Below are positions 40,652 through 60,600 of a DNA stretch of 64,000 nucleotides, piece by piece. The notes below the pieces were generated by a model that made no database searches, had not been told where the DNA came from, and saw nothing but the letters and a program-made list of their open reading frames with translations. The stretch covers positions 1-64,000 of the IMG/VR virus record IMGVR_UViG_3300032315_000647. One strand, given 5' to 3'. This DNA comes from a virus. Position 1 is the stretch's first letter, and each line of letters starts with the position of its first letter. The translations under genes and the position numbers were made by a program.

Positions 40652-40924
40652 TTATCCAGGACTAGTTGTTGTTGTAGTTGTAGTAACAGGTCTAGTTGTT
40701 GTTGTGGTAGTTGTGCTAGTAGAAGTGCTAGTAGTAGTAGTTGTACTTGTGCTACTAGTAGATGTTGTAGTTGTTGTTGGATTACAACACTCATAAGCAT
40801 CAATTTCCTCCCAGTTACCTACAGCAGGCTTAAACCTATTGAGGATTAAACTACCAGAGATTACACGACCTGTACCATCATAACGTACAAATGCTTTTAA
40901 CGGTCTTTTATTTATACTTGCCAT
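40652..40924 (-). CDS. Structural-type protein with Thr-rich tail, copy 2 (90 aa)
   Basis: A 90-aa protein: N-terminal 50-residue domain (ASINKRPLKAFVRYDGTGRV ... ECCNP) followed by about 40 residues that are almost all Thr and Ser. The domain is about two-thirds identical to the upstream gene product (40937-41212), a tandem duplication. The Thr/Ser tail looks like a mucin-like O-glycosylation stretch or a flexible linker. Likely virion surface. Confidence 0.75.
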   Translation of the reverse strand: MASINKRPLKAFVRYDGTGRVISGSLILNRFKPAVGNWEEIDAYECCNPTTTTTSTSSTSTTTTTSTSTSTTTTTTTRPVTTTTTTTSPG

Positions 40925-40936
40925 ATTATATTAGTT

Positions 40937-41212
40937 TTAAAGGGCTGTTGTAGTTGTGGTGGTAGTGGTTAGTTCTGCAGTGGTTGTGGTAGTAGTGGTA
41001 GTAGGAGTTCTAGTAGTACTAGTTGTAGTAGTAGTAGGTACACCTGTGGTGGTAGTAGTGGTAGTAGGATTGCAGCACTCATATGCTGGTATCTCTACCC
41101 AATTACCAACCTTAGGTTTCTTTCTTCTTAGAATCAGGCTGCTAGGAACGATTCTCCCAGTACCATCAAAGCGTACATAAGCTTTGAGAGGGCGTTTGTC
41201 AATTGATGCCAT
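40937..41212 (-). CDS. Structural-type protein with Thr-rich tail, copy 1 (91 aa)
   Basis: A 91-aa paralogue of the gene at 40652-40924: N-terminal domain (ASIDKRPLKAYVRFDGTGRI ... AYECCNP) plus a Thr-rich tail broken by Pro, Ala and Arg. The gene just upstream in the operon (41215-42231) is a glycosyltransferase 3 nt away, which makes these tails plausible acceptor sites (inference). Confidence 0.75.
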   Translation of the reverse strand: MASIDKRPLKAYVRFDGTGRIVPSSLILRRKKPKVGNWVEIPAYECCNPTTTTTTTGVPTTTTTSTTRTPTTTTTTTTAELTTTTTTTTAL

Positions 41213-41214
41213 GA

Positions 41215-42231
41215 TTAGTAATTTAAATTATACTTGTTAAATAATGTTTTCAGTTCATTTGCGTAATACCATGTGCATCTTTTCTTGGAATTCTCATCAT
41301 TTAGAATAACATCTAAATGAGGATCTTTTGAAGGATCTGCACCTGTATGATATTTACCTTTATAGAAACAGTTATAACCATCCATAAAGGTGTTTACAAT
41401 TCCTGCATTATGAAGAATAGGATGAGTTTCTAGTTTTTCCACCATGTCAGGACTCCAACTAAATCCCATTTCAGGAATAATCTTTACATCCTTTCCTCTC
41501 ACCCAAAGATTCCAAAGAACTGCCCACATATCTGCACACCAACTTTGAAATCCTTTATTCTCATTTTCAAAATACAACTTGTTTATATGCTGTAGATATC
41601 TCCTAATCAGTATGCAATCATTCATCACCTTGCTCCAAAAGTCTGCATCTATATTCTTAAGGAGATATTGAGCTCCACCACTATCATCATTCTTTCCCTC
41701 AGCTTCCTCTCTACTAATACCAATTACGCTACCTATCTCAGCAAGGATGTCTCTTGTTTTGTATTCATCAAGTTTTTCAGGAAGTACATCCCTCACCTTG
41801 CTATCAAAATAGGAAGCTCCAATGTAGCTCACTGTATCAGAAACATAACAAACATCATCATTAATAAACTGTTGAACATCAAACTTTTCTGTAAAAAGAA
41901 TGTCTGAGTCACAGTAGAATATAGCTTGGTTGCTTAATTCAGGATGTTCTCTCCAGTGTCTCCATAATGTATAAGGTCGTAACACTGGAATATACACACC
42001 TAATTGTGAACTAATTTGATGTTCATCTTTGTAAAAATGAAACTCAGCTTCTGGATATAAGTCCACTATCTGTTTCCAATTCTCATTCTTCTCTCTAAAG
42101 TTGGGAGTGAACACTAGAACAATTGCTTTGTCTGATTCATTCCTTTTCTTCAGACTTTCCAACCACAGATGCACTTGCCATGTGTAATAAGTGTCATCTG
42201 GCTGAACGCATACATACTTCAGATCCTTCAT
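41215..42231 (-). CDS. Glycosyltransferase, HPAT-like GT-A fold
   Basis: A 338-aa protein with a Rossmann/GT-A N-terminus and a DxD metal site in FYCDSDILF. The C-terminal block WAVLWNLWVRGKDVKII ... ETHPILHNAG resembles hydroxyproline O-arabinosyltransferases (GT95-like). It ends 3 nt before the first Thr-tailed gene in the transcription direction, suggesting that it modifies those products. Specificity unknown. Confidence 0.7.
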   Translation of the reverse strand: MKDLKYVCVQPDDTYYTWQVHLWLESLKKRNESDKAIVLVFTPNFREKNENWKQIVDLYPEAEFHFYKDEHQISSQLGVYIPVLRPYTLWRHWREHPELSNQAIFYCDSDILFTEKFDVQQFINDDVCYVSDTVSYIGASYFDSKVRDVLPEKLDEYKTRDILAEIGSVIGISREEAEGKNDDSGGAQYLLKNIDADFWSKVMNDCILIRRYLQHINKLYFENENKGFQSWCADMWAVLWNLWVRGKDVKIIPEMGFSWSPDMVEKLETHPILHNAGIVNTFMDGYNCFYKGKYHTGADPSKDPHLDVILNDENSKKRCTWYYANELKTLFNKYNLNY

Positions 42232-44723: not shown

Positions 44724-44755
44724 CAAACCTATGTAATTCTTTTGAAACTACCAAA
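44724..44755 (-). promoter_or_regulatory. Minus-strand promoter of the lysis operon
   Basis: On the minus strand TTTG (44755-44752), 20-nt spacer, TAGGTTTG (44731-44724): a full consensus match. It overlaps the plus-strand promoter at 44741-44773 by 15 nt, so RNA polymerase can only occupy one of them at a time. Confidence 0.75.
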
Positions 44756-44773
44756 TATTTTTTTATACCTTTG
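44741..44773 (+). promoter_or_regulatory. Plus-strand promoter of the GT/methyltransferase fusion
   Basis: TTTG at 44741-44744, 21-nt spacer, TACCTTTG at 44766-44773; consensus match. The transcription start would be near 44780, 14 nt before the ATG at 44794. It is divergent to, and overlaps, the lysis operon promoter. Confidence 0.75.
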
Positions 44774-44793: not shown

Positions 44794-47700
44794 ATGCCTA
44801 ATAGTTATACATTCTTTAAAGCTGAAATTAGACAGTGGTTTATTGATAATATTCCTTCTGATACAAGGATTTTAGATGTTGGTCCTGGTCAAGGCACTTA
44901 TTCAGATTTACTTAGAGATCTTGGATATAGAATAGATGCTGTTGAGATATGGGCTCCCTATGTAGAACAGTTTAACCTCAGGGCCAAATATGATAATGTT
45001 TATGTAAAAGACATATTGAACTTTAATGTTAGCTCTTACGACTTTATTATTCTGGGAGATGTATTAGAACACATTCCTACAGAAGATGCTCAGGAACTTC
45101 TTACCAAGTTCGATTTGATGGAAAAGAGATTCATGGTTGCTGTTCCTTACATGATGCCTCAAGATGGAGCAGAATACGGGAATGAGCATGAAACTCATCA
45201 TCAGGAAGACCTTACGCCAGATGTAATGTTAGAACGTTATCCAGGACTAGAGAAACTTTATGATAATCAGTGGTATGGATATTATGTAAACGTTGACACT
45301 AGGTTTGAGAAAGCCTATGTTTTATATGCTACAGAGAGTTATAAAGACACTGTACAAGCATGTGTTTATTCTATAAAAGCATATAGTAAGATTCCTATAA
45401 TTGTTTACATGCTCAACTCAGATGAAGAGATCAATGGAGCTGTTACAATAAGTTGGGACTGCAAAGTTAAAAATGTTCCTCAGCAGAAGTATATCAATAG
45501 AGATGACAGAGATATATACAACATACTGATACAAAGACCAGCTATTGTAAAAGATGCTCTTAAATATGCTAAAACTGTAGCATATGTGGATAGTGATAGT
45601 GTAGCCACTAGGTTTGTAGATAGAATGTTTGATCTCTATCCTACTAAATCTACTCATCCATATTTTACAGAAGGTATTTATGAATGGATGCATCACAATG
45701 GTAGAGGAGGTGCTGAAAGTATGGATGATCTAAGTACAACGTTAGAGCATCCAGCTTGTGAGTTGTTTGGTGTAAACCAGTATGTTAGAAAGAAATACGT
45801 ACAGACAGGATATTTTGTAGCTGGACAATGGTGTAAAACATTCTTAGAAGAGTGGCAGTGGATGTGTAATCATCCTAAGGTTGTAAAAAATCCACAATAC
45901 TATGCCCCTTATCATGAAGAAACTATAGTTAATGTCCTCCTTTGGAAGTATGATGTAAATGATGGGCTTCCATACATATACATCAATGGGTCTTTGGACG
46001 TAGTGAATAGCTCAGAGTTTACAGGACAAAAAGAACACATAGGACATTTCATCGCCACTCCTGCAGAAAAGAAAGACCTGTTGTTCTATCATGGAGAAAA
46101 AGATCCTCTTACAATGTACAGAATGTTGGAACGTATGAAGAATAGACCTAATATATTGTTTCTAGCTCCTCATCTATCTACAGGTGGTATGCCAGCTTTC
46201 TTGTTAAAGAGAATAAAGGCATTGATGCAATTCACTGATGTAGAAATAGTTGTTGTGGAATATGCCAATCATAGCGATGATTATGTGGTCCAGAAGAACC
46301 AGATAAGAAACTTAGTGAAGTATTTCTATACACTAGGTGAGAACAAGATGGAAGTGATAGACATTATCAAAAAACATGGAATAGATGTAGTGCACATTGA
46401 TGAGATGGTAGAAGATGGTTGGAATAATTGGCCAGAAGAACTTAGGGAAGCTTTGTATGTAGATGACAGAGCTTGGAGAGTAGTGGAGACATGTCATAAT
46501 ATTGTATTCAATCCAGATATTGAAAAGCGCTATCACCCAGATGCATATGCATTCTGTACTCCCCATCACTTGAAAACATTTGCTAACATGCCTTCTAGAA
46601 AGGAAGTGATTGAGTTTCCTATAGAAAGGAAGGATGATATAGCTCTCAATTTTGGTAAAGGTTATCATGTATTGAATGTAGGACTATGGACCCCTGGCAA
46701 AAACCAAGGAGAAGCTGTAGAGCTGGCTAAACAAATGCCAGATGTACAGTTTCACTTTGTAGGTAATCAGGCTGGTAACTTCCAACACTATTGGGAACCA
46801 ATCATGAAAGATCTTCCTTCTAATGTGCATGTGTGGGGAGAGCGTGATGATGTAGGTAGCTTTATGAAAGGATGTGATGTCTTCATGTTCAACAGTACAT
46901 TTGAGTGTAATCCGTTGGTAATTAGGGAAGCTATAGGATATGGTAAACCAATTCTTGCAAGAAATCTTCCTCAGTATGGAGATATGTTCACTAAGTATAT
47001 TACACATCTAGAGCCTGATAGGATGAAAGAGCAATTGTATGACTTATTGAAAAATGATACCACTTACACTATTCCTGAGAATCAAACAGAGGAATTTGGT
47101 AAGCGTCACTTACAGTTATATCAGGAAGTTGTAAGTAATGGTTGTCAAACTGACGTTGAAAACATTACAATTGCTCATTATTTTGTTCATGAACCTTTCT
47201 TGGAAATAACAGGAAACTCTGATAGTAAGTTTACAGTGAAATATTTTGATGAGAGTGGTAAGTGTTATTATGATAATGTAATAGGAATTAATAGTTGGGT
47301 GAGAATCAACAGAAGATGGTTTACTAGATGGACAATAAAAATATGGAAGGATGAAGAGATGTATTATGAATACACTCTTAATTACGAGAATCAACGTGTT
47401 TATATATCCTTTGATAGTAAATCGTTAGGAGATACAATAGCATGGATGCCTTATGTTCTTAAGTTTAAGAAGAAACATAACTGTCATGTTATAGTGAGCA
47501 CATTCAAGAACTTCCTCTTTAAAGATGTCTACCCAGAACTTGAATTTGTAGATCCTGGTTCAAGAGTAGATAATATTTTTGGAATGTACACATTAGGTTG
47601 GTTTTATAATCCAGATAAAGAACCTGAACTTTGTAACACTATTCCTCTTCAGAAAGCAGCATCTAACATCTTAGGTGTTGATTATCAGGAACTCAAACCA

Positions 47701-48216
47701 CGGATAGCATTTACACCTAGTAACAAATTATATGATAAATTTGTTACAATAGCTACTAATTCCACAGCTGCTTGTAAGTTTTGGACTAAGGAAGGATGGC
47801 AAGAAGTTATTAATTTTCTCCACGAGAAGGGATATAAAGTGATAAATGTATCTATAGAAAGGAACTCATTTGACAACTGTGAGCAACTAGAAGATACATC
47901 TATGGAGAACACTATGAATACTATTCATCATAGTGAGTTTTTCATAGGACTTTCTAGTGGTTTGAGTTGGTTAGCCTGGGCTCTGGATAAGAAAGTGGTT
48001 ATGATAAGTAACTTTACAGAAGCTGATCATGAGTTCCAATGTATCAGGGTGAGTAAAAAGGATGTGTGTAATGGATGTTGGAATAAATCACACAACAGAT
48101 TCAATCCAGGAGATTGGTATTGGTGCCCTGAACATAAAGGAACAGACAGACAATTTGAATGTCACACATCAATAACAGCTAGTGATGTTATTAATCAAAT
48201 ACAACATTTGTTATGA
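44794..48216 (+). CDS. Methyltransferase - GT-A - GT4 - autotransporter heptosyltransferase-like fusion (1140 aa)
   Basis: A 1140-aa four-module protein. Residues 10-120: SAM methyltransferase (motif I ILDVGPGQG at 26-34). 170-420: GT-A domain with AYVDSDSV (DxD 266-268). 452-760: GT4-type GT-B with FECNPLVIREA (E704...E712). 800-1140: a domain matching autotransporter strand-loop-strand O-heptosyltransferases (TibC/AAH type): ISFDSKSLGDTIAW, IGLSSGLSWLAWAL, and a four-Cys iron-finger-like motif (Cys1092, 1095, 1111, 1123). Those enzymes add heptose to Ser of repeat proteins. Here the likely targets are virion fibre repeats, an inference. It has its own divergent promoter and is followed by FkbM. 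Confidence 0.85.
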   Translation: MPNSYTFFKAEIRQWFIDNIPSDTRILDVGPGQGTYSDLLRDLGYRIDAVEIWAPYVEQFNLRAKYDNVYVKDILNFNVSSYDFIILGDVLEHIPTEDAQELLTKFDLMEKRFMVAVPYMMPQDGAEYGNEHETHHQEDLTPDVMLERYPGLEKLYDNQWYGYYVNVDTRFEKAYVLYATESYKDTVQACVYSIKAYSKIPIIVYMLNSDEEINGAVTISWDCKVKNVPQQKYINRDDRDIYNILIQRPAIVKDALKYAKTVAYVDSDSVATRFVDRMFDLYPTKSTHPYFTEGIYEWMHHNGRGGAESMDDLSTTLEHPACELFGVNQYVRKKYVQTGYFVAGQWCKTFLEEWQWMCNHPKVVKNPQYYAPYHEETIVNVLLWKYDVNDGLPYIYINGSLDVVNSSEFTGQKEHIGHFIATPAEKKDLLFYHGEKDPLTMYRMLERMKNRPNILFLAPHLSTGGMPAFLLKRIKALMQFTDVEIVVVEYANHSDDYVVQKNQIRNLVKYFYTLGENKMEVIDIIKKHGIDVVHIDEMVEDGWNNWPEELREALYVDDRAWRVVETCHNIVFNPDIEKRYHPDAYAFCTPHHLKTFANMPSRKEVIEFPIERKDDIALNFGKGYHVLNVGLWTPGKNQGEAVELAKQMPDVQFHFVGNQAGNFQHYWEPIMKDLPSNVHVWGERDDVGSFMKGCDVFMFNSTFECNPLVIREAIGYGKPILARNLPQYGDMFTKYITHLEPDRMKEQLYDLLKNDTTYTIPENQTEEFGKRHLQLYQEVVSNGCQTDVENITIAHYFVHEPFLEITGNSDSKFTVKYFDESGKCYYDNVIGINSWVRINRRWFTRWTIKIWKDEEMYYEYTLNYENQRVYISFDSKSLGDTIAWMPYVLKFKKKHNCHVIVSTFKNFLFKDVYPELEFVDPGSRVDNIFGMYTLGWFYNPDKEPELCNTIPLQKAASNILGVDYQELKPRIAFTPSNKLYDKFVTIATNSTAACKFWTKEGWQEVINFLHEKGYKVINVSIERNSFDNCEQLEDTSMENTMNTIHHSEFFIGLSSGLSWLAWALDKKVVMISNFTEADHEFQCIRVSKKDVCNGCWNKSHNRFNPGDWYWCPEHKGTDRQFECHTSITASDVINQIQHLL

Positions 48217-48881
48217 GAGAGTTTCTATGGGAACCTGAATGTTATCCAGGATTTAGAGAGCATGTAGAAAAAGAAATCTTTGTAGATAGAATCTATGAGA
48301 GATATTTTGAGGTTGAGAAAGGGGATGTTGTGTTCGATGTTGGTGCTAGTCTAGGACCATTCACCTATTCAATACTTGAAAAACAACCTTCTCATGTCTT
48401 TGCATTTGAACCAAGCTTTGAGGAATATAAGACGTTAGTGTTGAACACTCGTAAAGGACCTGTTACACATATTAACAAGGGTGTATCAAATCATATTGGA
48501 GAATTCAATTTTGAATATGTGTTCAGTGTTGGTGAGAATGAAATACAGTATTCAACCACCTTCAAAAAAGTGATTGATGATTACAATATTCAAAAGATAG
48601 ACTTTCTAAAAACAGATTGTGAAGGAGGAGAATATGATATATTCAATCTGGAAAACCTTATTTGGATTAAACAGAATGTCAGAAAGATTGCTGGTGAGTG
48701 GCATTTAGGAACTCCAGAATTGAAAGATAAGTTCAGAGTGTTTAGAGACACCTATCTTAGGATGTTTCCTAATTTTAAGATTAGATCTTTCAATGGATTC
48801 AATGTTGAAGAAAATCTTTGGACAGAACCATTTATTGAAGTGTTCACTGAACTCATCATCTATATTGATAATAGGCACTAA
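48213..48881 (+). CDS. FkbM-family methyltransferase
   Basis: A 222-aa protein. SAM-binding motif VVFDVGASLGPFTYS, acidic loop AFEPSFEEY, then KIDFLKTDCEGGEYDI, all typical of the FkbM family, which O-methylates sugars or small molecules. It overlaps the preceding GT fusion by 4 nt, so both are translated together and act on the same product, probably a glycan. Its end overlaps the minus-strand APS kinase by 26 nt (convergent). Confidence 0.85.
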   Translation: MREFLWEPECYPGFREHVEKEIFVDRIYERYFEVEKGDVVFDVGASLGPFTYSILEKQPSHVFAFEPSFEEYKTLVLNTRKGPVTHINKGVSNHIGEFNFEYVFSVGENEIQYSTTFKKVIDDYNIQKIDFLKTDCEGGEYDIFNLENLIWIKQNVRKIAGEWHLGTPELKDKFRVFRDTYLRMFPNFKIRSFNGFNVEENLWTEPFIEVFTELIIYIDNRH

Positions 48882-49320
48882 TCTTTTTGTAAACAAAATT
48901 GTTTACTAAGTGTAAACAATACTGTATAGGTAGGGAGGATGTATCAATATGTAGAACATCCTCCCCCTCTATTGGTTTTTCAAAATCTTTAACTTGATAA
49001 TCTTCTTTTTCTCTATCTTCTTCATAAGTCAAATAGATCCAAGAAACATCACTTGTTAAAGTTCTTAAATAGTCTCTGGCTTCCTTATAAGGATAGACAA
49101 GTGATAGGATTACATTCTTTCCTGTACTATTTAGGAAGTGGGCTATATCACTAGCCCTGTTCAGGTTCTTGATTCTTCCTTCTCTAGAATAGTCTTTGTT
49201 TGCAAACAATTCTCTCAAAGCATCACCATCTATATTCACATATGTACTATCGTTAGCCAATATCTGACTTGCTAATGTGGTTTTTCCACTACCAGGTTGT
49301 CCAAATAGTACGATTATCAT
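48856..49320 (-). CDS. Adenylylsulfate (APS) kinase-like protein
   Basis: A 154-aa P-loop kinase: Walker A GQPGSGKTT, then NIDGDALRELF (APS kinase signature DGDxxR), and RIKNLNRASDIAHF. APS kinase phosphorylates APS to PAPS, the sulfate donor of sulfotransferases. The sulfotransferase gene at 49317 overlaps this start by 4 nt, so PAPS production and use are coupled. Related small kinases with other substrates exist, so APS specificity is inferred from the DGD motif and the neighbour. Confidence 0.75.
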   Translation of the reverse strand: MIIVLFGQPGSGKTTLASQILANDSTYVNIDGDALRELFANKDYSREGRIKNLNRASDIAHFLNSTGKNVILSLVYPYKEARDYLRTLTSDVSWIYLTYEEDREKEDYQVKDFEKPIEGEDVLHIDTSSLPIQYCLHLVNNFVYKKISAYYQYR

Positions 49321-50132
49321 TTGTAGTTGAATCTATTAAAATACCATTGAAAGTTATCTTTTATCCATTTACAAACGTCAGCTCCTAATATTTTTTGAGC
49401 ATCGCTTCTTAAAGGTTCCACTTTCTTTCTAATTGTATGATCTCCAAAGATTCCATGAATTTCATCATCTTCCTGTGTCACTTGCTCTACATTATCAAAA
49501 TCATGAATGAAGTCTTCAATTCCAAGATATTGATATAACTGTGTCATTGTTGTCTGTGGATAGAGACACAAGTCTTCATACTTTATAAAATGAATATGTT
49601 TATCAATTCCTTGTCTGAATATTTCATTTAGTCTTTCAATTGCAAGTCCTACAGGAGGACCTGCTAACCATGCATCAATTCTTTTTGGTGTGGTAGTTCC
49701 TTGACCTGTTGTCCAGTTGAGAATCTTATCTTGCTTATCAGGATGTTTCCTAAAGTTTTTCTCCATGCTACAGAAGATATCTCGTAAGTCTCTTACCATA
49801 CAAACTATCTTAGGTTGAGGATATACAAAGTTGAGAAAATCATAATGTATTCCCCATCCTCTAGACTTGTCTAGAATATATCTTTTGTCTGTAATTGCAT
49901 TGTAATATCCTTTAAGACCTTCATGACAAAAGCCTTTAAAAGCTTCCTTCATAATAGCAGGATCTTGAGCTTTGAACTCACCGCTGTCTGTGTAATTAGA
50001 TCTTGCTGCATAAATCAGTTCAAGTACACCGCTGGTAGGAGTACAATAAAAATCAGGTCTCTGTGCAACAATGTTTTGCAAAAGAGTGCTACCAGTTCTT
50101 GGAAGTGAACTCTGAAAGAATATTTTCTCCAT
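49317..50132 (-). CDS. Sulfotransferase
   Basis: A 271-aa protein with the PAPS-binding 5'-PSB loop SSLPRTGSTLLQN near the N-terminus and the 3'-PB motif IVCMVRDLRDIFCSM in the middle; the C-terminal region is helical with several His/Arg. Both are hallmarks of cytosolic-type sulfotransferases. It would transfer sulfate from PAPS to a hydroxyl on a glycan or protein. Flanked by the APS kinase and a GT9-like transferase, so a sulfated glycan is the likely product. Confidence 0.85.
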   Translation of the reverse strand: MEKIFFQSSLPRTGSTLLQNIVAQRPDFYCTPTSGVLELIYAARSNYTDSGEFKAQDPAIMKEAFKGFCHEGLKGYYNAITDKRYILDKSRGWGIHYDFLNFVYPQPKIVCMVRDLRDIFCSMEKNFRKHPDKQDKILNWTTGQGTTTPKRIDAWLAGPPVGLAIERLNEIFRQGIDKHIHFIKYEDLCLYPQTTMTQLYQYLGIEDFIHDFDNVEQVTQEDDEIHGIFGDHTIRKKVEPLRSDAQKILGADVCKWIKDNFQWYFNRFNYK

Positions 50133-51014
50133 TTAGTTGGTTTTGAGAGATTCAATTATCTCTTCAGCATTGAATATCTCTGTTTCATTATTATATGGAA
50201 ACTCTACTGGGTTTCCTACAATATTAAACTTCTGTAGGTAACTACCTCTTAAGTCAGGTTCTATAGTGAAAGGATTTGCAAGAATATTATGATTCCAATC
50301 ATATCCAAACACTGTAGGACTATTCACTATCCAACACACTGTTGAAGGAAGTTTATATGCAGCAGCTGTATGTTGAGCAAAGCTATCCATGAATAACCTC
50401 TTATCACTTCTTTCAATAACAGCAGCAATCTCTCTAAAGGTAGCAGTTAAAGTGGTTGTATGTGGAATAAAAGGTTGATTCTCTCTTCTAATTTGCATTA
50501 TAAAATAATCATCCTTCAGAGCATTAACAACATCTTGTGCCACTCCAAATGGAATATCTCTAGACCAACTATATAAAACATCTTGATTCTCAGCTCCTCC
50601 ATTAGTTTGAATAATCAATAGAGGCTTGTCAATATTGAAGTTACGAAGATAGAATTCTCTTTCTCTCTGTGTAATAAACAACTCAGGAGCTTCCCCATCA
50701 TAAGAAAGACCATACATCTCACACCATATTTTAATAAGATGCTCCTCACAATAGAGATGTTTTTTCTCTAGATAAGGATCTTGTAAAAAAAAGTGTTCTG
50801 TAAGTTTATCCTCAATAAAGTCTTTATAGAAATAAGATGTTTCACCAAAGTGTAGTATCCTGTCTATATTAGGGTTACCTCTAAAAACATCAGGAAATCC
50901 AGAAACAACAATCAACAGATGATTTGGATATTTCTTTTTAATAGCAGAGCATACAGCTGTTGCCATAATACTCTTTCCTATTCCTCCGTTAATCTGGAAG
51001 ATTATACGCTTCAT
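50133..51014 (-). CDS. GT9-like (heptosyltransferase-type) glycosyltransferase
   Basis: A 293-aa protein: the N-terminus FQINGGIGKSIMATAVCSAIKKKYP is typical of GT9 heptosyltransferases, with a Rossmann domain; the second half has AAVIERSDKRLFMDSFAQHTAAAY, the acceptor/donor region of this fold. GT9 enzymes usually transfer heptose from ADP-heptose to lipid A or glycans. It begins directly before the sulfotransferase in the transcription order, supporting a common pathway. Confidence 0.75.
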   Translation of the reverse strand: MKRIIFQINGGIGKSIMATAVCSAIKKKYPNHLLIVVSGFPDVFRGNPNIDRILHFGETSYFYKDFIEDKLTEHFFLQDPYLEKKHLYCEEHLIKIWCEMYGLSYDGEAPELFITQREREFYLRNFNIDKPLLIIQTNGGAENQDVLYSWSRDIPFGVAQDVVNALKDDYFIMQIRRENQPFIPHTTTLTATFREIAAVIERSDKRLFMDSFAQHTAAAYKLPSTVCWIVNSPTVFGYDWNHNILANPFTIEPDLRGSYLQKFNIVGNPVEFPYNNETEIFNAEEIIESLKTN

Positions 51015-52121: not shown

Positions 52122-55100
52122 TTAAGCTGTTAAGTTACCAATTAAATACCATTCGTCAGTAGCCACCTTCATAAGTGTTACAGCACCATATTGGGCATTG
52201 AGCTTACGCCAACTGTTAGCGCTTCGCAAAGTTACGCCAGCACAAGCACAAACAGTAGTTTGACCAGCACCATATTGCGTAACATTCAAACAAGTACCAA
52301 TTGGGAAAGCCACTTGACTACATGCTGGAACACATATGTTGTTTGCAGCTCCGACATTCATTTCAACCGTCTTACCAGAATCAGCCAAAACTAATGCATA
52401 AGAAGCAGCTTGTCTATTGAACTGTGTCAGTCCATTAAGTTTACCACAAGAACAAACGTTATTGAAATATGCTGTACAAGCATCAAGACCAGTGAGTCCA
52501 CAGCCCATAACAATTGTATAATTGTTACAAGCTAAACTGCTCTGACCAAATGCTAAGGATCCACAACAGAATGCCTTGTTTGATTGTCCTCCTATAATAG
52601 CACTACTTCTACCAAGAGCACAGTTGTCAAATCCTCCTCCTACACTAGCATAAACACCTGATGCAGAGTTAGCACTACCTCCTGCTACAGTTGCATAAGT
52701 GCCTGCAATATTAACTGCACCCCCACCGACAGTACCGTAGTTTGAACACACACAATTTCGTGATCCACCTCCAACTGTTGCTGCTACAGCTGAACCAGCA
52801 AATGGACATATTAATCTATTTCTGTCTCCACCACCAATAGATCCAAAAGGTGTGTTGACATCTATTATATTACAAAAACCTCCACTTATTACCGAACAAC
52901 AGCTGTTCAGTATATTACAATTACCTCCTCCTATTGTACTATGTACTACATTACAAAGCTTATTTGAAGATCCTCCAACAATAGCTGAATAATATCCACC
53001 GTCAATTGCATTAGTACATCCTGATCCTATTAATGAAAATTGTCCAAAAAGCATTGAGTTGCCCTGACCTGAACTTATTCCAGAACCATTACTGTAAGTT
53101 GATATAGTATTACCATAACCGCCTGATATTACTGATTGACCAGAGAAATTTAATATTAAGTTAAGACTACCTCCTCCAACAGTTGAATCAGTTGAATTAA
53201 TACTGACACAATTTCCACTACCTCCTGAGATTGTTGAATAGTATCCTGAGGCTGTGTTATTACATCCTCCACTAACAGTGGCATAATTTCCTGTAGTGGT
53301 GTTGAGTTGACCACAACGAACACTAGAACCAGTCCCTGCACCAAGTATAATTACAGGCGCACTTCCTGAAAATGATGTACCAGAACTTCCAGAAGTTCCA
53401 GACGTACCAGCCCCTCCAGTAACACCGCTTGTTCCACTAGTTCCACTAGTTCCAGTTCCACCATTAACTCCAGAAGTACCTGATGTACCGTTATTACCAT
53501 TAACTCCAGAGGTACCGCTAGTACCTCTAGTACCTGATGTTCCAGACGTACCTGAAGAACCAGCAGCACCATTAACTCCACTGGTTCCACTCGTACCACT
53601 TGTACCTGCTGCACCAGTTCCACCATTTACACCAGATGTACCTGAAGTTCCTGAAGAACCTGCTGCACCGTTGATTCCTGACGTACCACTAGTTCCATTG
53701 TTACCATTAACACCGCTAGTACCAGATGTTCCATTTACACCAGAGGTTCCAGACGTTCCATTATTACCGTTCACTCCAGAAGTTCCACTTGTTCCCCTAG
53801 TGCCCGATGTTCCTGATGTACCACTTGTTCCAGCAACACCGTTAACACCACTTGTACCTGAAGTGCCAGAACTACCTGCTACACCGTTAACTCCTGAAGT
53901 GCCAGAAGTACCACTGCTTCCAGCTGCACCATTTACTCCTGATGTTCCGCTTGTTCCTGAACTGCCAGCAGCTCCATTAACACCACTAGTCCCACTAGTA
54001 CCATTTACACCCGAAGTACCTGATGTGCCAGCTGCGCCATTCACACCAGACGTTCCACTTGTTCCGTTAACACCTGAAGTTCCTGAAGTTCCGTTCACTC
54101 CACTAGTTCCAGAAGTTCCGTTATTTCCATTCACCCCAGATGTACCAGAGGTTCCTCGTGTACCTGATGTACCAGAAGTCCCTGTTGTACCACTAGTTCC
54201 AGATGTACCAGATGACCCTGCTGCACCGTTAACACCTGATGTACCGCTAGTACCTGATGATCCTGCAGCTCCGTTAGCTCCACTAGTGCCACTTGTTCCA
54301 GATGTTCCATTCACTCCACTTGTACCACTAGTCCCAGAGGTGCCATTATTTCCGTTAACACCAGAGGTCCCAGAAGTCCCTGTAGTACCAGAGGTTCCAC
54401 TAGTACCAGATATACCTGACGTACCGCTACTACCATTTGCACCAGAAGTTCCAGATGTGCCATTCACACCTGAAGTACCGCTCGTTCCTGAAGTGCCGTT
54501 AGCTCCAGATGTCCCAGAGGTTCCATTTATACCAGAAGTTCCGCTAGTTCCATTGTTACCAGAAGTACCAGACGTACCTGTAGTTCCACTAGTGCCAGAC
54601 GTACCATTAATCCCTGAAGTACCACTTGTACCATTAATGCCACTAGTCCCTGATGTACCATTGATTCCACTGGTTCCTGAAGTACCATTGACACCAGAGG
54701 TTCCATTTGTACCGTTGATTCCACTAGTGCCACTCGTTCCTCTAGTTCCACTAGTTCCTGATGTTCCACTAGTTCCATTCACTCCAGAGCTACCCGAAGT
54801 GCCTGTGGTACCACTTGTACCTGAGGTTCCATTGATTCCTGAACTACCAGAAGTACCGTTCACTCCAGACGTACCGCTCGTACCATTAACTCCACTCGTA
54901 CCACTCGTTCCTGATGTGCCAGCTAAGCCTGAAGTACCACTAGTTCCATTAATTCCAGATGTGCCTGATGTACCAGTTGTACCACTAGTGCCATTTAAGC
55001 CTGAAGTTCCAGATGTTCCGTTCGTTCCATTAATTCCAGAAGACCCACTGGTTCCACTTGTGCCATTTATTCCTGACGTGCCACTTGTACCTGAAGAACC

Positions 55101-57527
55101 ATTATTACCAGAAGTGCCACTTGTACCATTTATCCCAGAGCTACCAGATGTCCCACTTGTTCCTGTAACACCACTAGTTCCAGATGTACCGTTTGCGCCT
55201 GAGGTTCCACTTGTTCCATTAGTTCCATTTGCACCTGAAGACCCACTAGAGCCAGATGTTCCGCTGGTTCCATTAGCCCCACTGCTTCCAGAGGTACCGC
55301 TAGTTCCTGTGGTGCCTGAAGTTCCACTGCTACCAGATATTCCACTAGAACCCGAAGTTCCAGAACTTCCACTTGAACCAGATGTACCATTAGTGCCATT
55401 ATTTCCATTAACACCACTAGTTCCACTTGTTCCATTTGCGCCTGACGATCCACTACTTCCACTAGTTCCTGAAGTCCCATTTATTCCTGACGTACCGTTA
55501 GTTCCAGATAAACCTGATGTTCCACTCGTACCTGTGCTGCCTGAAGTTCCAGAGGTACCGTTTATACCAGAGGTCCCACTAGTTCCGTTAATTCCAGATG
55601 AGCCAGAACTGCCAGATGTACCGTTGATTCCAGATGTACCAGACGTTCCGTTTATACCTGAACTACCTGCTGTTCCTGAAGATCCACTAGATCCAGAACT
55701 ACCGTTTGTTCCACTAACACCACTTGTACCTGAGCTACCGTTTGAACCAGAAGTTCCTGATGTCCCATTATTACCGCTAGTTCCAGAGGAACCAGATAAT
55801 CCTGAAGTTCCACTACTACCTGATGAACCACTTGTTCCTGATGTTCCAGGTAAACCATTATTACCTGAAGTTCCACTTGAACCTGAAGTTCCTGAGGTTC
55901 CAGAAGAACCGCTCGTCCCTGTTATACCTGAAGAACCAGATGTTCCTGAAACTCCACTAGTCCCTGAAGACCCACTTATACCAGACGTACCATTAGTTCC
56001 GTTACTACCAGATGTACCAGAAGTTCCGTTGTTTCCTGAAGTTCCACTTGACCCACTGGTTCCAGAACTACCATTTATTCCAGAACTGCCAGATGTTCCA
56101 TTTATTCCTGAGCTTCCGCTCGATCCTGAGGTACCATTTATTCCACTAGTACCAGACGTGCCATTCAATCCTGATGAACCTGAACTACCAGACGTACCAC
56201 TTGTACCATTAGTTCCTGAACTACCTGAGGATCCATTAGTCCCATTTATACCTGAGCTACCACTTGAACCAGATGATCCACTAGTGCCTGAAGTGCCGTT
56301 GTTACCACTCGTGCCAGATGAACCGTTTATTCCTGATGTACCTGAGGTTCCATTAGAACCACTTGTTCCTGAACTTCCACTAGTTCCTGCAGTTCCTGGT
56401 AAACCACTACTTCCACTTGATCCACTTGTTCCTGACAAACCAGATGTACCAGATGTACCATTGGAACCTGAAGAACCACTAGTTCCTGCTGTACCATTAA
56501 TTCCAGATGTCCCACTAGACCCTGAACTACCGCTCGTACCAGCACTACCGTTTATTCCACTTGAACCAGAAGTTCCATTTATACCCGAAGATCCTGATGA
56601 TCCATTAGTACCAGATATTCCACTGCTACCAGATGTACCATTGAGCCCACTTGTTCCAGAGCTACCAGATGTTCCTGAGGTTCCATTACCACCTGAGGTG
56701 CCACTTGATCCGCTAGTGCCAGAGGTTCCTGAAGTGCCACTAGTTCCTGATCCTCCACCACCTGTTATTACCACTTGAGCATCACCACCTCCCAAATCAT
56801 TCACTGTAGCACCTGAGAATGTAATTTTGTCAACGTTAGTCACTGTGGTTGTGCCATCAGTCACTTCAACTATTGAAGATGTCCCACTGCTACCAGAGGT
56901 GCCAGAGGTGCCTCTTGTTCCTGAACTACCTGAACTGCCTGAACTTCCATTTGTGCCTGATACTCCACTTGATCCTGATGTTCCATTGCTACCTGACACA
57001 CCACTAGACCCTGAGGTTCCGTTACTACCTTGTATTCCGCTTATTCCAGAGGATCCAGAAGATCCAGATGTACCATTAGAACCACTCAATCCAGAAGTTC
57101 CTGAACTTCCAGATGTTCCAGCTGTTCCTGATATACCAGAGCTTCCACTAGTGCCGTTAGACCCTGATGTTCCTGATGTTCCTGAGCTACCGCTAGTGCC
57201 TGAACGTCCAGAGGATCCTGATGTACCACTACTTCCTGAACCACCTGATCCTGAACCACCTGATTCACAAACAGCCTCTAGTTTTTGTAATATTACCTCA
57301 AGATTATCATTTGTTCTAATCCCTGTACAGATTAAATTGGGTCCTTCATAGAAGACACAAGTTGCGTTCAATATGACAGGGCATGGCTTTATGGAACACA
57401 GCACTGTAGGTGTTGTGGGTATATTTATAGGAGGGCAGTAAATAGGAACATGGATACTACCAGAAGTACCAGAGGATCCACTAGATCCTGAACCACCATA
57501 AGATAATATAGAAGGTAGTACGTTCAT
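52122..57527 (-). CDS. Giant collagen-like fibre with beta-roll head (1801 aa)
   Basis: An 1801-aa fibre. Residues 1-88: N-terminal domain with several Cys and Pro. 89-216 and 256-1387: Gly-X-Y collagen-like triplets, mostly GTS, GSS, GNG, GIN, GVN, without proline. 217-255: short non-collagen insert. 1388-1700: about 16 repeats of (S/T)-x-x-S-G-G-x-x-N, as in YadA-type beta rolls, with unusual Cys-rich stretches. 1700-1801: compact C-terminal domain ending DEWYLIGNLTA. Such fibres trimerise and carry receptor-binding tips. It has its own promoter upstream. Confidence 0.85.
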   Translation of the reverse strand: MNVLPSILSYGGSGSSGSSGTSGSIHVPIYCPPINIPTTPTVLCSIKPCPVILNATCVFYEGPNLICTGIRTNDNLEVILQKLEAVCESGGSGSGGSGSSGTSGSSGRSGTSGSSGTSGTSGSNGTSGSSGISGTAGTSGSSGTSGLSGSNGTSGSSGSSGISGIQGSNGTSGSSGVSGSNGTSGSSGVSGTNGSSGSSGSSGTRGTSGTSGSSGTSSIVEVTDGTTTVTNVDKITFSGATVNDLGGGDAQVVITGGGGSGTSGTSGTSGTSGSSGTSGGNGTSGTSGSSGTSGLNGTSGSSGISGTNGSSGSSGINGTSGSSGINGSAGTSGSSGSSGTSGINGTAGTSGSSGSNGTSGTSGLSGTSGSSGSSGLPGTAGTSGSSGTSGSNGTSGTSGINGSSGTSGNNGTSGTSGSSGSSGSSGINGTNGSSGSSGTNGTSGTSGSSGSSGLNGTSGTSGINGTSGSSGSSGINGTSGSSGINGSSGTSGSSGTSGNNGTSGTSGSNGTNGTSGISGSSGTSGVSGTSGSSGITGTSGSSGTSGTSGSSGTSGNNGLPGTSGTSGSSGSSGTSGLSGSSGTSGNNGTSGTSGSNGSSGTSGVSGTNGSSGSSGSSGTAGSSGINGTSGTSGINGTSGSSGSSGINGTSGTSGINGTSGTSGSTGTSGTSGLSGTNGTSGINGTSGTSGSSGSSGANGTSGTSGVNGNNGTNGTSGSSGSSGTSGSSGISGSSGTSGTTGTSGTSGSSGANGTSGTSGSSGSSGANGTNGTSGTSGANGTSGTSGVTGTSGTSGSSGINGTSGTSGNNGSSGTSGTSGINGTSGTSGSSGINGTNGTSGTSGLNGTSGTTGTSGTSGINGTSGTSGLAGTSGTSGTSGVNGTSGTSGVNGTSGSSGINGTSGTSGTTGTSGSSGVNGTSGTSGTSGTRGTSGTSGINGTNGTSGVNGTSGTSGINGTSGTSGINGTSGTSGINGTSGTSGTTGTSGTSGNNGTSGTSGINGTSGTSGANGTSGTSGTSGVNGTSGTSGANGSSGTSGISGTSGTSGTTGTSGTSGVNGNNGTSGTSGTSGVNGTSGTSGTSGANGAAGSSGTSGTSGVNGAAGSSGTSGTSGTTGTSGTSGTRGTSGTSGVNGNNGTSGTSGVNGTSGTSGVNGTSGTSGVNGAAGTSGTSGVNGTSGTSGVNGAAGSSGTSGTSGVNGAAGSSGTSGTSGVNGVAGSSGTSGTSGVNGVAGTSGTSGTSGTRGTSGTSGVNGNNGTSGTSGVNGTSGTSGVNGNNGTSGTSGINGAAGSSGTSGTSGVNGGTGAAGTSGTSGTSGVNGAAGSSGTSGTSGTRGTSGTSGVNGNNGTSGTSGVNGGTGTSGTSGTSGVTGGAGTSGTSGSSGTSFSGSAPVIILGAGTGSSVRCGQLNTTTGNYATVSGGCNNTASGYYSTISGGSGNCVSINSTDSTVGGGSLNLILNFSGQSVISGGYGNTISTYSNGSGISSGQGNSMLFGQFSLIGSGCTNAIDGGYYSAIVGGSSNKLCNVVHSTIGGGNCNILNSCCSVISGGFCNIIDVNTPFGSIGGGDRNRLICPFAGSAVAATVGGGSRNCVCSNYGTVGGGAVNIAGTYATVAGGSANSASGVYASVGGGFDNCALGRSSAIIGGQSNKAFCCGSLAFGQSSLACNNYTIVMGCGLTGLDACTAYFNNVCSCGKLNGLTQFNRQAASYALVLADSGKTVEMNVGAANNICVPACSQVAFPIGTCLNVTQYGAGQTTVCACAGVTLRSANSWRKLNAQYGAVTLMKVATDEWYLIGNLTA
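53367..57263 (-). repeat. Gly-Thr/Ser-Ser triplet repeat tract coding for the collagen-like shaft
   Basis: About 420 Gly-X-Y triplets coded over 3.9 kb, interrupted once near 56760-56880. The nucleotide copies vary synonymously (Gly GGA/GGT/GGC, Thr and Ser by many codons) while the amino-acid pattern stays strict. The antisense frame is open for 1035 codons only because these codons read as stop-free Pro/Val triplets. Confidence 0.9.
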
Positions 57528-57640: not shown

Positions 57641-60600
57641 TCATCTTCTACTTTCCTTCTGAATAGTAATGTCAAATTCTTTAGCGAATTCAGGATCCAG
57701 GATACCACCGTAGGTAAAGATAGATTTTGTGAAAGGAAACATCTTACCGAAATTCTTAATAGGTTGAGCTTTCTTTCTAACCTGTTCAACAGTGAGATCA
57801 GAATCTGATGTATCCACTCCAGTCATTTCCATCATAGCGTGATCAACAAATCTTCCCATGTCTGAGAATATACCAATCGCAGGGAACAGTGATCCACTAA
57901 GAATCTTTTGAAATTCAGCAGGATTGTAGAAGAACGAAAGCTCACTAATGAATTTATCAATTACACGAAGCTGATATCTATAAAAATTCTTACTAGCTCT
58001 ATCATCTTCATCATCAGGAGCAGCAAATCCTAAAGCAAACATTGCGCCAAACATAGACATGAGAATAGAAAGTTCCTTAACCTGGTTTCTGAGATTGATT
58101 CTAATCATGTCTATAAACTCATCTCTATCCATCTCCAAAGGTTTGCCTGTACGTTTTTCATACTTTTCAGCAAACTCTTCGTACATCTTATTCATCAATT
58201 CAACACCTTTATCATTGACAGCCAAGATGTTATAGATGTTAGTTGATCTGTCTCTTATAGATGTACCTAATACATAAGCAAAGAGTCTAATCCTACCAAT
58301 GTCATATTTCTGTCCTGTTGTTATTCCATCTTCTCCTATTTCTACAGAGAAGTCATCACTCACCTTTCTAAACTCTCCAAAACGTGTATCCACTAGTTTA
58401 GGAATCCAGTTTTTGAACACCATCATTGATTTTGTCCAGACACTCATTCCCATACGATTGAGATCACTATCTGAAAGTCCACCAGTAGCATTTCTTGATA
58501 TACGTCTGGTTAAGTTAGTAAGACGTTGAAGCTCATCTATATTAGATAAATCAAGACCAGGGATTACAAGTTTACCATTTTCAAGTTTCTTTGTAACACT
58601 TATGGCTTTGGTTTTCTTCAATTCTTCTATTTCTTCATTAATCTTTGAAGCCACTTCTTTATACTTTGAAGAAGAATCATACCTGTCTTTATACTTCCTT
58701 TTGACGAACTCACGAATGTTGACAATCTTTCCATTGTCTATCATTGTGTTATCAAGAAGAGTGAGGAATATAGACTTCTCAATGTGCTGTTCAGGATGCT
58801 TCATGAAGAAATATAGCATGTCTGAAAAGTTCTGTCTTGTGAGAACTGTTAAACCTGCCTCCTGAAGTTTGTCATACGTAGGATCATCTTTCAGAGGCAT
58901 AAATATATTCACAAGTTGAATAAACATTTCACGTTCTTCATCATTCTTGAACTTATTTCCAACAAGCTTTGTTTCATTAGCTAGCACTTCTCTAGCCTTG
59001 AAGTAGTTACCAGCTTGTGTAGCAATCTGTATGTTAGCACCAAATGCATTCACAGCACCAGAAACAAACTCAAGTCCAAGTGCTTTTAACTGAAATGCTC
59101 TGTTTGCAGCATCCATAGTTTTCACCAGAGATGTAGCAGAAGGATTCTCATCTATTTTGAACACCTCTCTATTGGCTACATTATTCACTGCACTCTTCAT
59201 AAAGTTCATCACCTTACCTACACCAAGTGGTGTGTCACTATCAGACAAGGGATACTTCTGTTCATATAGTAGTGCTCTAAGGAAGTCATTGAAGATTTTT
59301 GCATTACCCTCACTAGTAACTTCTCCTTTAGCCATTACCTTTGGTCCACGTTCATCGTAAACAACTTCACCAACATTATTTGTATTAAGATAGCCTTTGA
59401 AAGTTTCAATAGTTTTAACAAGCTGCAATTGATCCTCCACTTCAGAAAGATATTTGTACTTCTCCATGTGGTTGATGTACAATATCATATTCTTGAAGAT
59501 GTCCTCACTTACATCAGAATAGTCATTTGTACCATCTTCCTTACGAGTGAAGTCATACGTGTAGTATTTAGGAATTGCATTTTCCAATTCACCTGTTAAC
59601 TCGTTTATTTTTCCATATCCTACATCATCAGTTTGTATCTGTAGACTCTTACCAAAGTTCATTACAGCAGAGACATCAAAGTCCCATGCAAGACTTTCTG
59701 CCATTCCTTTCCTTATAAAAGGAAGGAATGTAGAAGCCACCTTATTACTAATATATCCAGACTCTTTAGCTTTATTATTCATCTCATTGATGAAGTTGTA
59801 AAGCTCAAACAGATCATTATCTTTTAGAAGTTCTTTATATTCTTCTGACTGCCATTTAGCTAGAGGATGTCTTTTAATAATGTAATTCTTCCAACCATTG
59901 AAATCTTTCCTATCAATATCCCATTTACGTTTTTCCTCAAGTATCATCTCATCCATTCTATCAGGATCATCATCATACAACTTTTTGATTCTTTCTATCT
60001 TCTTATCAAGCAGTTCTTTTGCTTCTTTCCTATATGCATCTACATCAATGTTATTTAACAACCAGTTTTTATCATGATTTCCTTCGAGTGCATTGTTATC
60101 TACACCTTCAAAGAATTCTTTCTTGAACTTGTATATTAGCTTGTTAACCGTTTTGTTTTTATCATCCTTCTGATAGATTTGTTGAACTAGTTTTCTAACA
60201 TCCCCACCTCTATCAACAAGTTTTTTACGAATAGCCATGAGTCTATCCACTTCACCAAGTGCATCTCTAGAGGCTCTTCCTTTTGCATTTGTGACAAGTT
60301 TGAACAACACTTCCAATGATGCCATAGGAAGTTCTGATATTCCTCTAAAGTTTGAAGACAAACCTTTTACAACAGCTTCAGCATTTAACAGTCCCTTTAC
60401 AAGATTTCGCTCACCTATGAATTTATCAGCAAACTTTCCAGACACCTCTCCAATTTGCTCTGCAGAAAGACGAATCTTTCTAGCTTCATCACTAATGTCT
60501 TTAAGTAGATTCTTGTTAAATGCAACACCCTCCTTAGCTTCTTCAGTGGTAGCATCTTTTTCCATTTGTTCATTATAGATGAGCTCACCGATTAAGTCAT

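Follow-up and report, generated by a model that had tools for sequence, protein, structure and literature searches.

A phage multi-module enzyme with a TibC-like end and its probable, still inferred, role in building a glycan on the phage's own fibre

Why would a phage carry a relative of a bacterial enzyme that puts heptose on adhesins, fused to three other enzyme modules and encoded close to its own giant fibre gene? This question is raised by one ORF in a 64,000-nucleotide stretch of the IMG/VR virus record IMGVR_UViG_3300032315_000647 (positions 1 to 64,000; the window hereafter). A sequence-only reading of this ORF had claimed that a 1140 aa protein joins a SAM methyltransferase, a GT-A, a GT4 and a domain like TibC/AAH that includes SSGLSWLAW and a four-Cys iron-finger-like motif and that a repetitive Ser/Thr fibre with a YadA-like beta roll is coded 4 kb away, and had taken this to suggest that the phage decorates its own fibre with an assembled, methylated glycan. 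The features of the locus are as follows.

44741..44773 (+), Bacteroidota-type promoter match, TTTG-N21-TAnnTTTG, 20 nt before the ATG
44794..48216 (+), four-module enzyme MT-GTA-GT4-BAHT, 1140 aa
44794..45288 (+), SAM methyltransferase module, aa 1-165
45289..46158 (+), GT-A glycosyltransferase module, aa 166-455, DxD at 266-268
46159..47163 (+), GT4 glycosyltransferase module, aa 456-790, EX7E at 704-712
47164..48213 (+), BAHT (TibC/AAH) domain, aa 791-1140
48213..48881 (+), FkbM-family methyltransferase, whose ATG overlaps the stop of the enzyme (ATGA)
48856..49320 (-), APS-kinase-like P-loop kinase
49317..50132 (-), sulfotransferase (Sulfotransfer_3, NoeE-like)
50133..51014 (-), weakly GT9/heptosyltransferase-like protein
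52122..57527 (-), 1801-aa fibre, proposed acceptor

We found that what had been seen in the sequence is real, with one detail only partly borne out. The ORF is uninterrupted, and each module could be recognized by profile or by fold. The methyltransferase (aa ~1-165) matches PF08241 (E 1.3e-7) and PF13489 and has the motif DVGPGQG at 28. The GT-A module (aa ~166-455) has no family HMM match, but its AlphaFold model is confident (pLDDT 89.6) and Foldseek matches it to GT-A enzymes (E ~1e-6), although these matches are all near TM 0.5 and spread over several GT-A families. The GT4 module (aa ~456-790) matches PF00534 (E 1.1e-10) and PF13692 and keeps its invariant residues. The C-terminal domain matches TIGR04414, autotransporter strand-loop-strand O-heptosyltransferase, at 276.8 bits against a curated cut-off of 200 (E 2.6e-82), and all 30 of 30 contigs searched are over this cut-off; the absence of such a match had been named beforehand as a condition that would refute the reading. 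TibC (4rb4) is matched by phmmer at E 3e-49. The full-length AlphaFold model has a mean pLDDT of 87.5, its C-terminal domain has the N-terminal beta-barrel (strands 791-861) and the GT-B catalytic domain of TibC, and its 21 best PDB matches in Foldseek are all TibC chains (best E 3.8e-29, TM 0.83; TM 0.82-0.85 on TibC over the set). The detail that is only partly borne out is the YadA-like beta roll: the window fibre itself has no Pfam match of the YadA-head or beta-roll kind, but homologous repeats in relatives match a beta-roll family over its cut-off. A sequence artefact was considered and rejected, since the same four-module fusion recurs in 30 other contigs, of which a few may be near-duplicates.

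Does the domain retain what TibC needs? In the TibC structure paper (PMC4358343) Asp110 is the base, Arg286, Trp305, Thr226 and Lys230 bind ADP-heptose, Cys339/342/358/370 hold iron, Phe265/Val266 form the thumb contact and residue 300 sets epimer selectivity. Here the corresponding residues are Asp880, Thr991, Lys995 and Trp1059, the motif SSGLSWLAW is at 1054-1062 (with Ser1054), and Cys1092, 1095, 1111 and 1123 align with the four iron-finger Cys of TibC. The Asp, Thr, Lys, Trp and four Cys are invariant in 25 of 25 phage sequences, and residue 300 is Ser or Gly, where Ser is as in AAH, which takes both ADP-heptose epimers (PMC4358343). Yet, two features that are needed for TibC activity are missing. 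Arg286, which contacts the adenine and whose Ala mutant loses most activity, is Thr1040 in the window; no Arg is found in the 25 phage sequences (Thr in 22), against Arg in 33 of 38 bacterial ones, although one huge phage (L222; L-numbers denote the stretches of contigs that were taken for comparison) appears by eye to keep Arg. The beta-hairpin thumb, which TibC needs for its dodecamer, is absent from all 25 phage sequences, with a 9-residue gap over TibC 265/266. It is also absent in about ten bacterial and archaeal members (a group within L086-L097, mostly gammaproteobacterial MAGs), so that the thumb is not universal in TIGR04414. The enzyme is therefore a member of the family by profile, fold and active site, but the dodecameric ring of TibC is not expected here, and both assembly and donor may differ. 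Phages that carry heptose-like genes (L002 and L006) have the same Thr, so this change need not exclude ADP-heptose.

How widespread is this enzyme? One scan of viral contigs found 97 relatives, and the best 80 of these were kept (49-79% identity over the domain). Among these 80 loci, 30 are MT-GTA-GT4-BAHT, 26 are GT4-BAHT, 14 are GTA-GT4-BAHT, 5 are BAHT alone and 5 are cut at the 5' end; GT4-BAHT is the usual core, whilst other modules come and go. Some relatives add a pyruvyltransferase, or FkbM plus GT25-like or DXD-sugar-transferase-like domains. In a few (L050, L061, L074 and L075) the missing modules stand as separate genes directly upstream, which ties them to one pathway. A search for a named phage with the full architecture gave only partial matches. 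A tree places 24 phage sequences in one clade (96/86, with one bacterial MAG as sister) and Microcystis phage Mel-JY01 apart, beside a Methylomicrobium sequence, so phages probably took up the domain at least twice.

The phage itself is crAss-like by its terminase, portal and capsid. Its terminase is 40% identical to that of Leptolyngbya phage Lbo-JY46, 34% to that of Cellulophaga phi17:2 and 25-29% to those of crAss-like phages, and PHROG terminase, portal and major head families are matched. The enzyme gene stands against the strand of the tail operon and is preceded by the promoter match listed above. This pattern occurs 9 times in the window against 2.7 expected, and a looser form of the site is found before the gene in 30 of 74 relatives against 1.4 expected in single-base shuffles, although related sequences are not independent. 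Together these observations point to a Bacteroidota host. In L004, L008, L009, L012 and L017 the site lies at or inside the start of the longest ORF, so that their true start is probably the MPN(S)Y methionine, as in the window.

Downstream of the enzyme the FkbM methyltransferase scores 56.3 bits with TIGR01444, over its cut-off, and FkbM directly follows the enzyme in about 15 relatives. On the opposite strand lie the APS-kinase-like protein (PF01583, E 2.3e-13; in 16 of 80 relatives), the sulfotransferase (PF13469, E 7.6e-19; in 15 of 80), the weakly GT9-like protein (RfaQ model, E 0.007 only; in 11 of 80) and then, after two small genes, the fibre. These genes recur between enzyme and fibre in a subset of relatives. 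The APS-kinase-like and sulfotransferase genes (48856-50132), in some relatives with an NMNAT-like nucleotidyltransferase (L033:11010-11393), suggest a phage sulfation pathway. The fibre contains long GTSG collagen-like repeats (PF01391, E 5e-165; PHROG tail fibre) and, from about aa 1440, C-terminal Ser/Gly/Asn-rich repeats that are beta-roll-like and similar to those in the fibres of L003, L006, L033, L055 and L061, of which L003 and L033 match a beta-roll family. At 57641-62914 a 1757-aa protein has no Pfam match at E 0.001 and no PHROG match at 1e-5, and its homologues lie near the enzyme in four relatives.

Is the closeness of enzyme and fibre more than chance? In the window the two are 3.9 kb apart. 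Of 12 contigs read whole, 11 hold at least one giant repetitive ORF (583-5210 aa) and the enzyme gene lies 0.7-6.1 kb from the nearest in all 11, running on the opposite strand and towards it in 10 of 11; the combined Fisher p is 4e-4 if contigs were independent, which they are not, so this value overstates the case. The twelfth contig, G006, has no giant repetitive ORF by the same measure. A collagen-like and repetitive fibre ORF of 5210 aa lies near a BAHT gene in contig G011 (42235-57867, L185-L186; the contig of L046). Of 35 loci with enough flank, 33 have a repetitive ORF of 300 aa or more nearby. Collagen-like repeats occur in 29 of 30 contigs with the gene, a count that stands without a baseline from similar phages that lack it. 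The fibres differ, being GTSG collagen-like, or ASG beta-roll (LbR_Ice_bind over its cut-off, with Peptidase_S74; L003 and L033), or made of NTAVG repeats with S74 (L009), and in the jumbo-phage group the neighbour is a Pro/Thr-rich protein instead. The same pairing is seen in a 735-kb metagenomic phage (L222), where a BAHT fusion lies about 4 kb from a convergent GTSG repeat gene, but a 636-kb one (L223) has BAHT alone and no repetitive gene within 12 kb. In Mel-JY01 a collagen-like ORF of at least 1016 aa on the + strand (L082:1-3052) overlaps a gene annotated on the other strand, and this annotation may be on the wrong strand. In bacteria, BAHT genes are often followed by their autotransporter substrate (PMC4358343); the phage fibre is not an autotransporter and is a substrate by inference only.

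If the first sugar is heptose, where would the donor come from? In L003, three consecutive genes between enzyme and fibre have as best matches the ADP-heptose 6-epimerase (168 bits, cut-off 274.6), heptose-7-phosphate kinase (120.6, cut-off 345; the gene is short) and heptose-1-phosphate adenylyltransferase (101.5, cut-off 181.5) models of TIGR02197/8/9, followed by a HAD phosphatase and a cupin, and L002, L006 and L007 have homologues of the same set beside the enzyme. No single match reaches its curated cut-off, but three adjacent steps of one pathway are hard to explain otherwise. The window's own contig has no TIGR02199 match, so this phage would need host ADP-heptose or another donor.

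The explanation that we consider likely, though unproven, is that the protein is a glycan assembly line for a virion protein. In this view the BAHT domain would transfer a first sugar, most likely heptose from an ADP-heptose, onto Ser (or Thr) residues of the giant repetitive fibre; the GT4 and GT-A modules would extend it; the N-terminal methyltransferase, and probably the translationally coupled FkbM enzyme, would methylate it; and the neighbouring sulfotransferase may sulfate it. Fusing the steps would keep the growing glycan at one place on a fibre with many sites. Our computations establish the membership of the BAHT family, the intact catalytic and iron-finger residues, the modular core, the recurrent position beside the fibre gene and the ADP-heptose-pathway-like genes in four close relatives, whereas enzyme activity, iron binding, donor, acceptor, the order of steps and the benefit (probably masking or tuning of fibre binding) are inferred, without any glycan or glycopeptide data. 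The strongest further reasons for doubt are the missing thumb and Arg286 and Burkholderia BimC, a BAHT-like protein that binds BimA and was reported to lack glycosyltransferase activity (PMC6439308); for this reason BimA/BimC was also dropped as a precedent that such adhesins are heptosylated by BAHTs. Known BAHT acceptors, moreover, are beta-helix autotransporters and not collagen-like or beta-roll fibres. The sequence-only interpretation is thus supported in part: the family assignment passes the profile, fold and active-site tests, and decoration of the phage's own fibre is strengthened by synteny over many relatives and by the heptose-like genes but is not shown, while the adjacent sulfotransferase, FkbM methyltransferase and GT9-like genes suggest a more elaborate glycan than was described.

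Other options fit parts of the data, although we regard each as unlikely. The same enzyme may modify Thr/Ser/Pro-rich tails or linkers of other structural proteins, the closeness to the fibre being incidental; this is the least improbable of them. Candidates here are two small Thr-tailed proteins (40652-41212, TTTTTTST tails) or a 2112-aa virion structural protein with very long Thr/Ser runs in its C-terminal half (L084:1932-8270, own contig about 83.9-90.3 kb). Thr-tailed proteins stand near the enzyme in many relatives, and the Pro/Thr-rich neighbour in the jumbo-phage group fits this option. Yet, a separate gene for a 338-aa protein that looks like a GT-A enzyme (41215-42231, phrog_4417) sits right beside the Thr-tailed proteins and recurs in 24 relatives, often beside Thr-tailed genes, so they may have their own enzyme and form a second glycosylation system, and the BAHT gene converges on the fibre cluster and not on these genes.

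Somewhat less likely still, the enzyme may remodel a host surface glycan or lipopolysaccharide, to block superinfection or change receptors. GT4, GT9-like, FkbM and pyruvyltransferase modules are typical of surface polysaccharide synthesis, and the putative promoter of the gene is opposite to the tail operon; but the BAHT domain belongs to a protein-modifying family distinct from the LPS heptosyltransferases, which match it far more weakly, and in most relatives the gene is placed inside the tail operon and beside the fibre. Very unlikely is that the C-terminal domain is a BimC-like inactive scaffold or adaptor that only brings the other modules to the fibre while another enzyme, possibly the GT9-like protein, primes the glycan. 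The missing thumb and Arg286 and the BimC precedent can be read in this way, but an inactive scaffold would not need the Asp, Thr, Lys and Trp that are invariant in all phage copies, and the heptose-like genes in relatives also speak against it.

A bolder view, which remains possible but which we hold only tentatively, is that phages have turned a bacterial adhesin heptosyltransferase into a modular, single-chain protein-glycan assembly line, in some lineages with its own ADP-heptose supply, that hyperglycosylates kilo-residue fibres with methylated and possibly sulfated glycans, using a thumbless BAHT that works without the TibC ring. If fibre heptosylation is true, protein O-heptosylation, known from enterobacterial adhesins, is also a common phage strategy, and the fused modules suggest which steps of glycan assembly belong together. 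It would give a directly testable case of a virus that builds and methylates glycans on its own receptor-binding fibres, may explain why many environmental phages carry clusters of sugar genes beside giant Ser/Thr/Gly-rich fibres, and would offer phage enzymes for glycoprotein engineering. The family is known, while the phage-borne, fused and thumbless form with its context is apparently undescribed: we found no paper on BAHT enzymes in phages in the literature searched, which covers few subscription journals and is not proof, and searches on crAss-like fibres, virion glycosylation and sulfotransferases found nothing on this system.

How does the enzyme compare with known systems? Phage-coded glycosyltransferases thought to modify virion proteins have been proposed for mycobacteriophages (for example PMC11256854), but these are not BAHT-based and are not known to have a fused assembly line or to come with heptose genes. 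The BAHT genes of Mel-JY01 and of the 735-kb and 636-kb metagenomic phages are 35-41% identical over the domain, and in Mel-JY01 and the 735-kb phage the domain is likewise at the C-terminus of a larger ORF, although Mel-JY01 branches apart from the main phage clade. BimC is likewise of the BAHT family, binds iron and has its gene beside its partner, as is inferred for the phage enzyme, but was reported inactive and has no fused modules. TibC and AAH, the bacterial autotransporter heptosyltransferases, share with the phage enzyme the N-terminal beta-barrel, the GT-B fold, the Asp/Thr/Lys/Trp active site, the iron-finger Cys4, the SGLSW motif and a gene near a giant repetitive surface fibre; the phage enzyme differs from them in being phage-encoded and fused to GT4, GT-A and methyltransferase modules, in lacking the beta-hairpin thumb, in having Thr for Arg286, and in having as its putative partner a collagen-like or beta-roll fibre and not an autotransporter.
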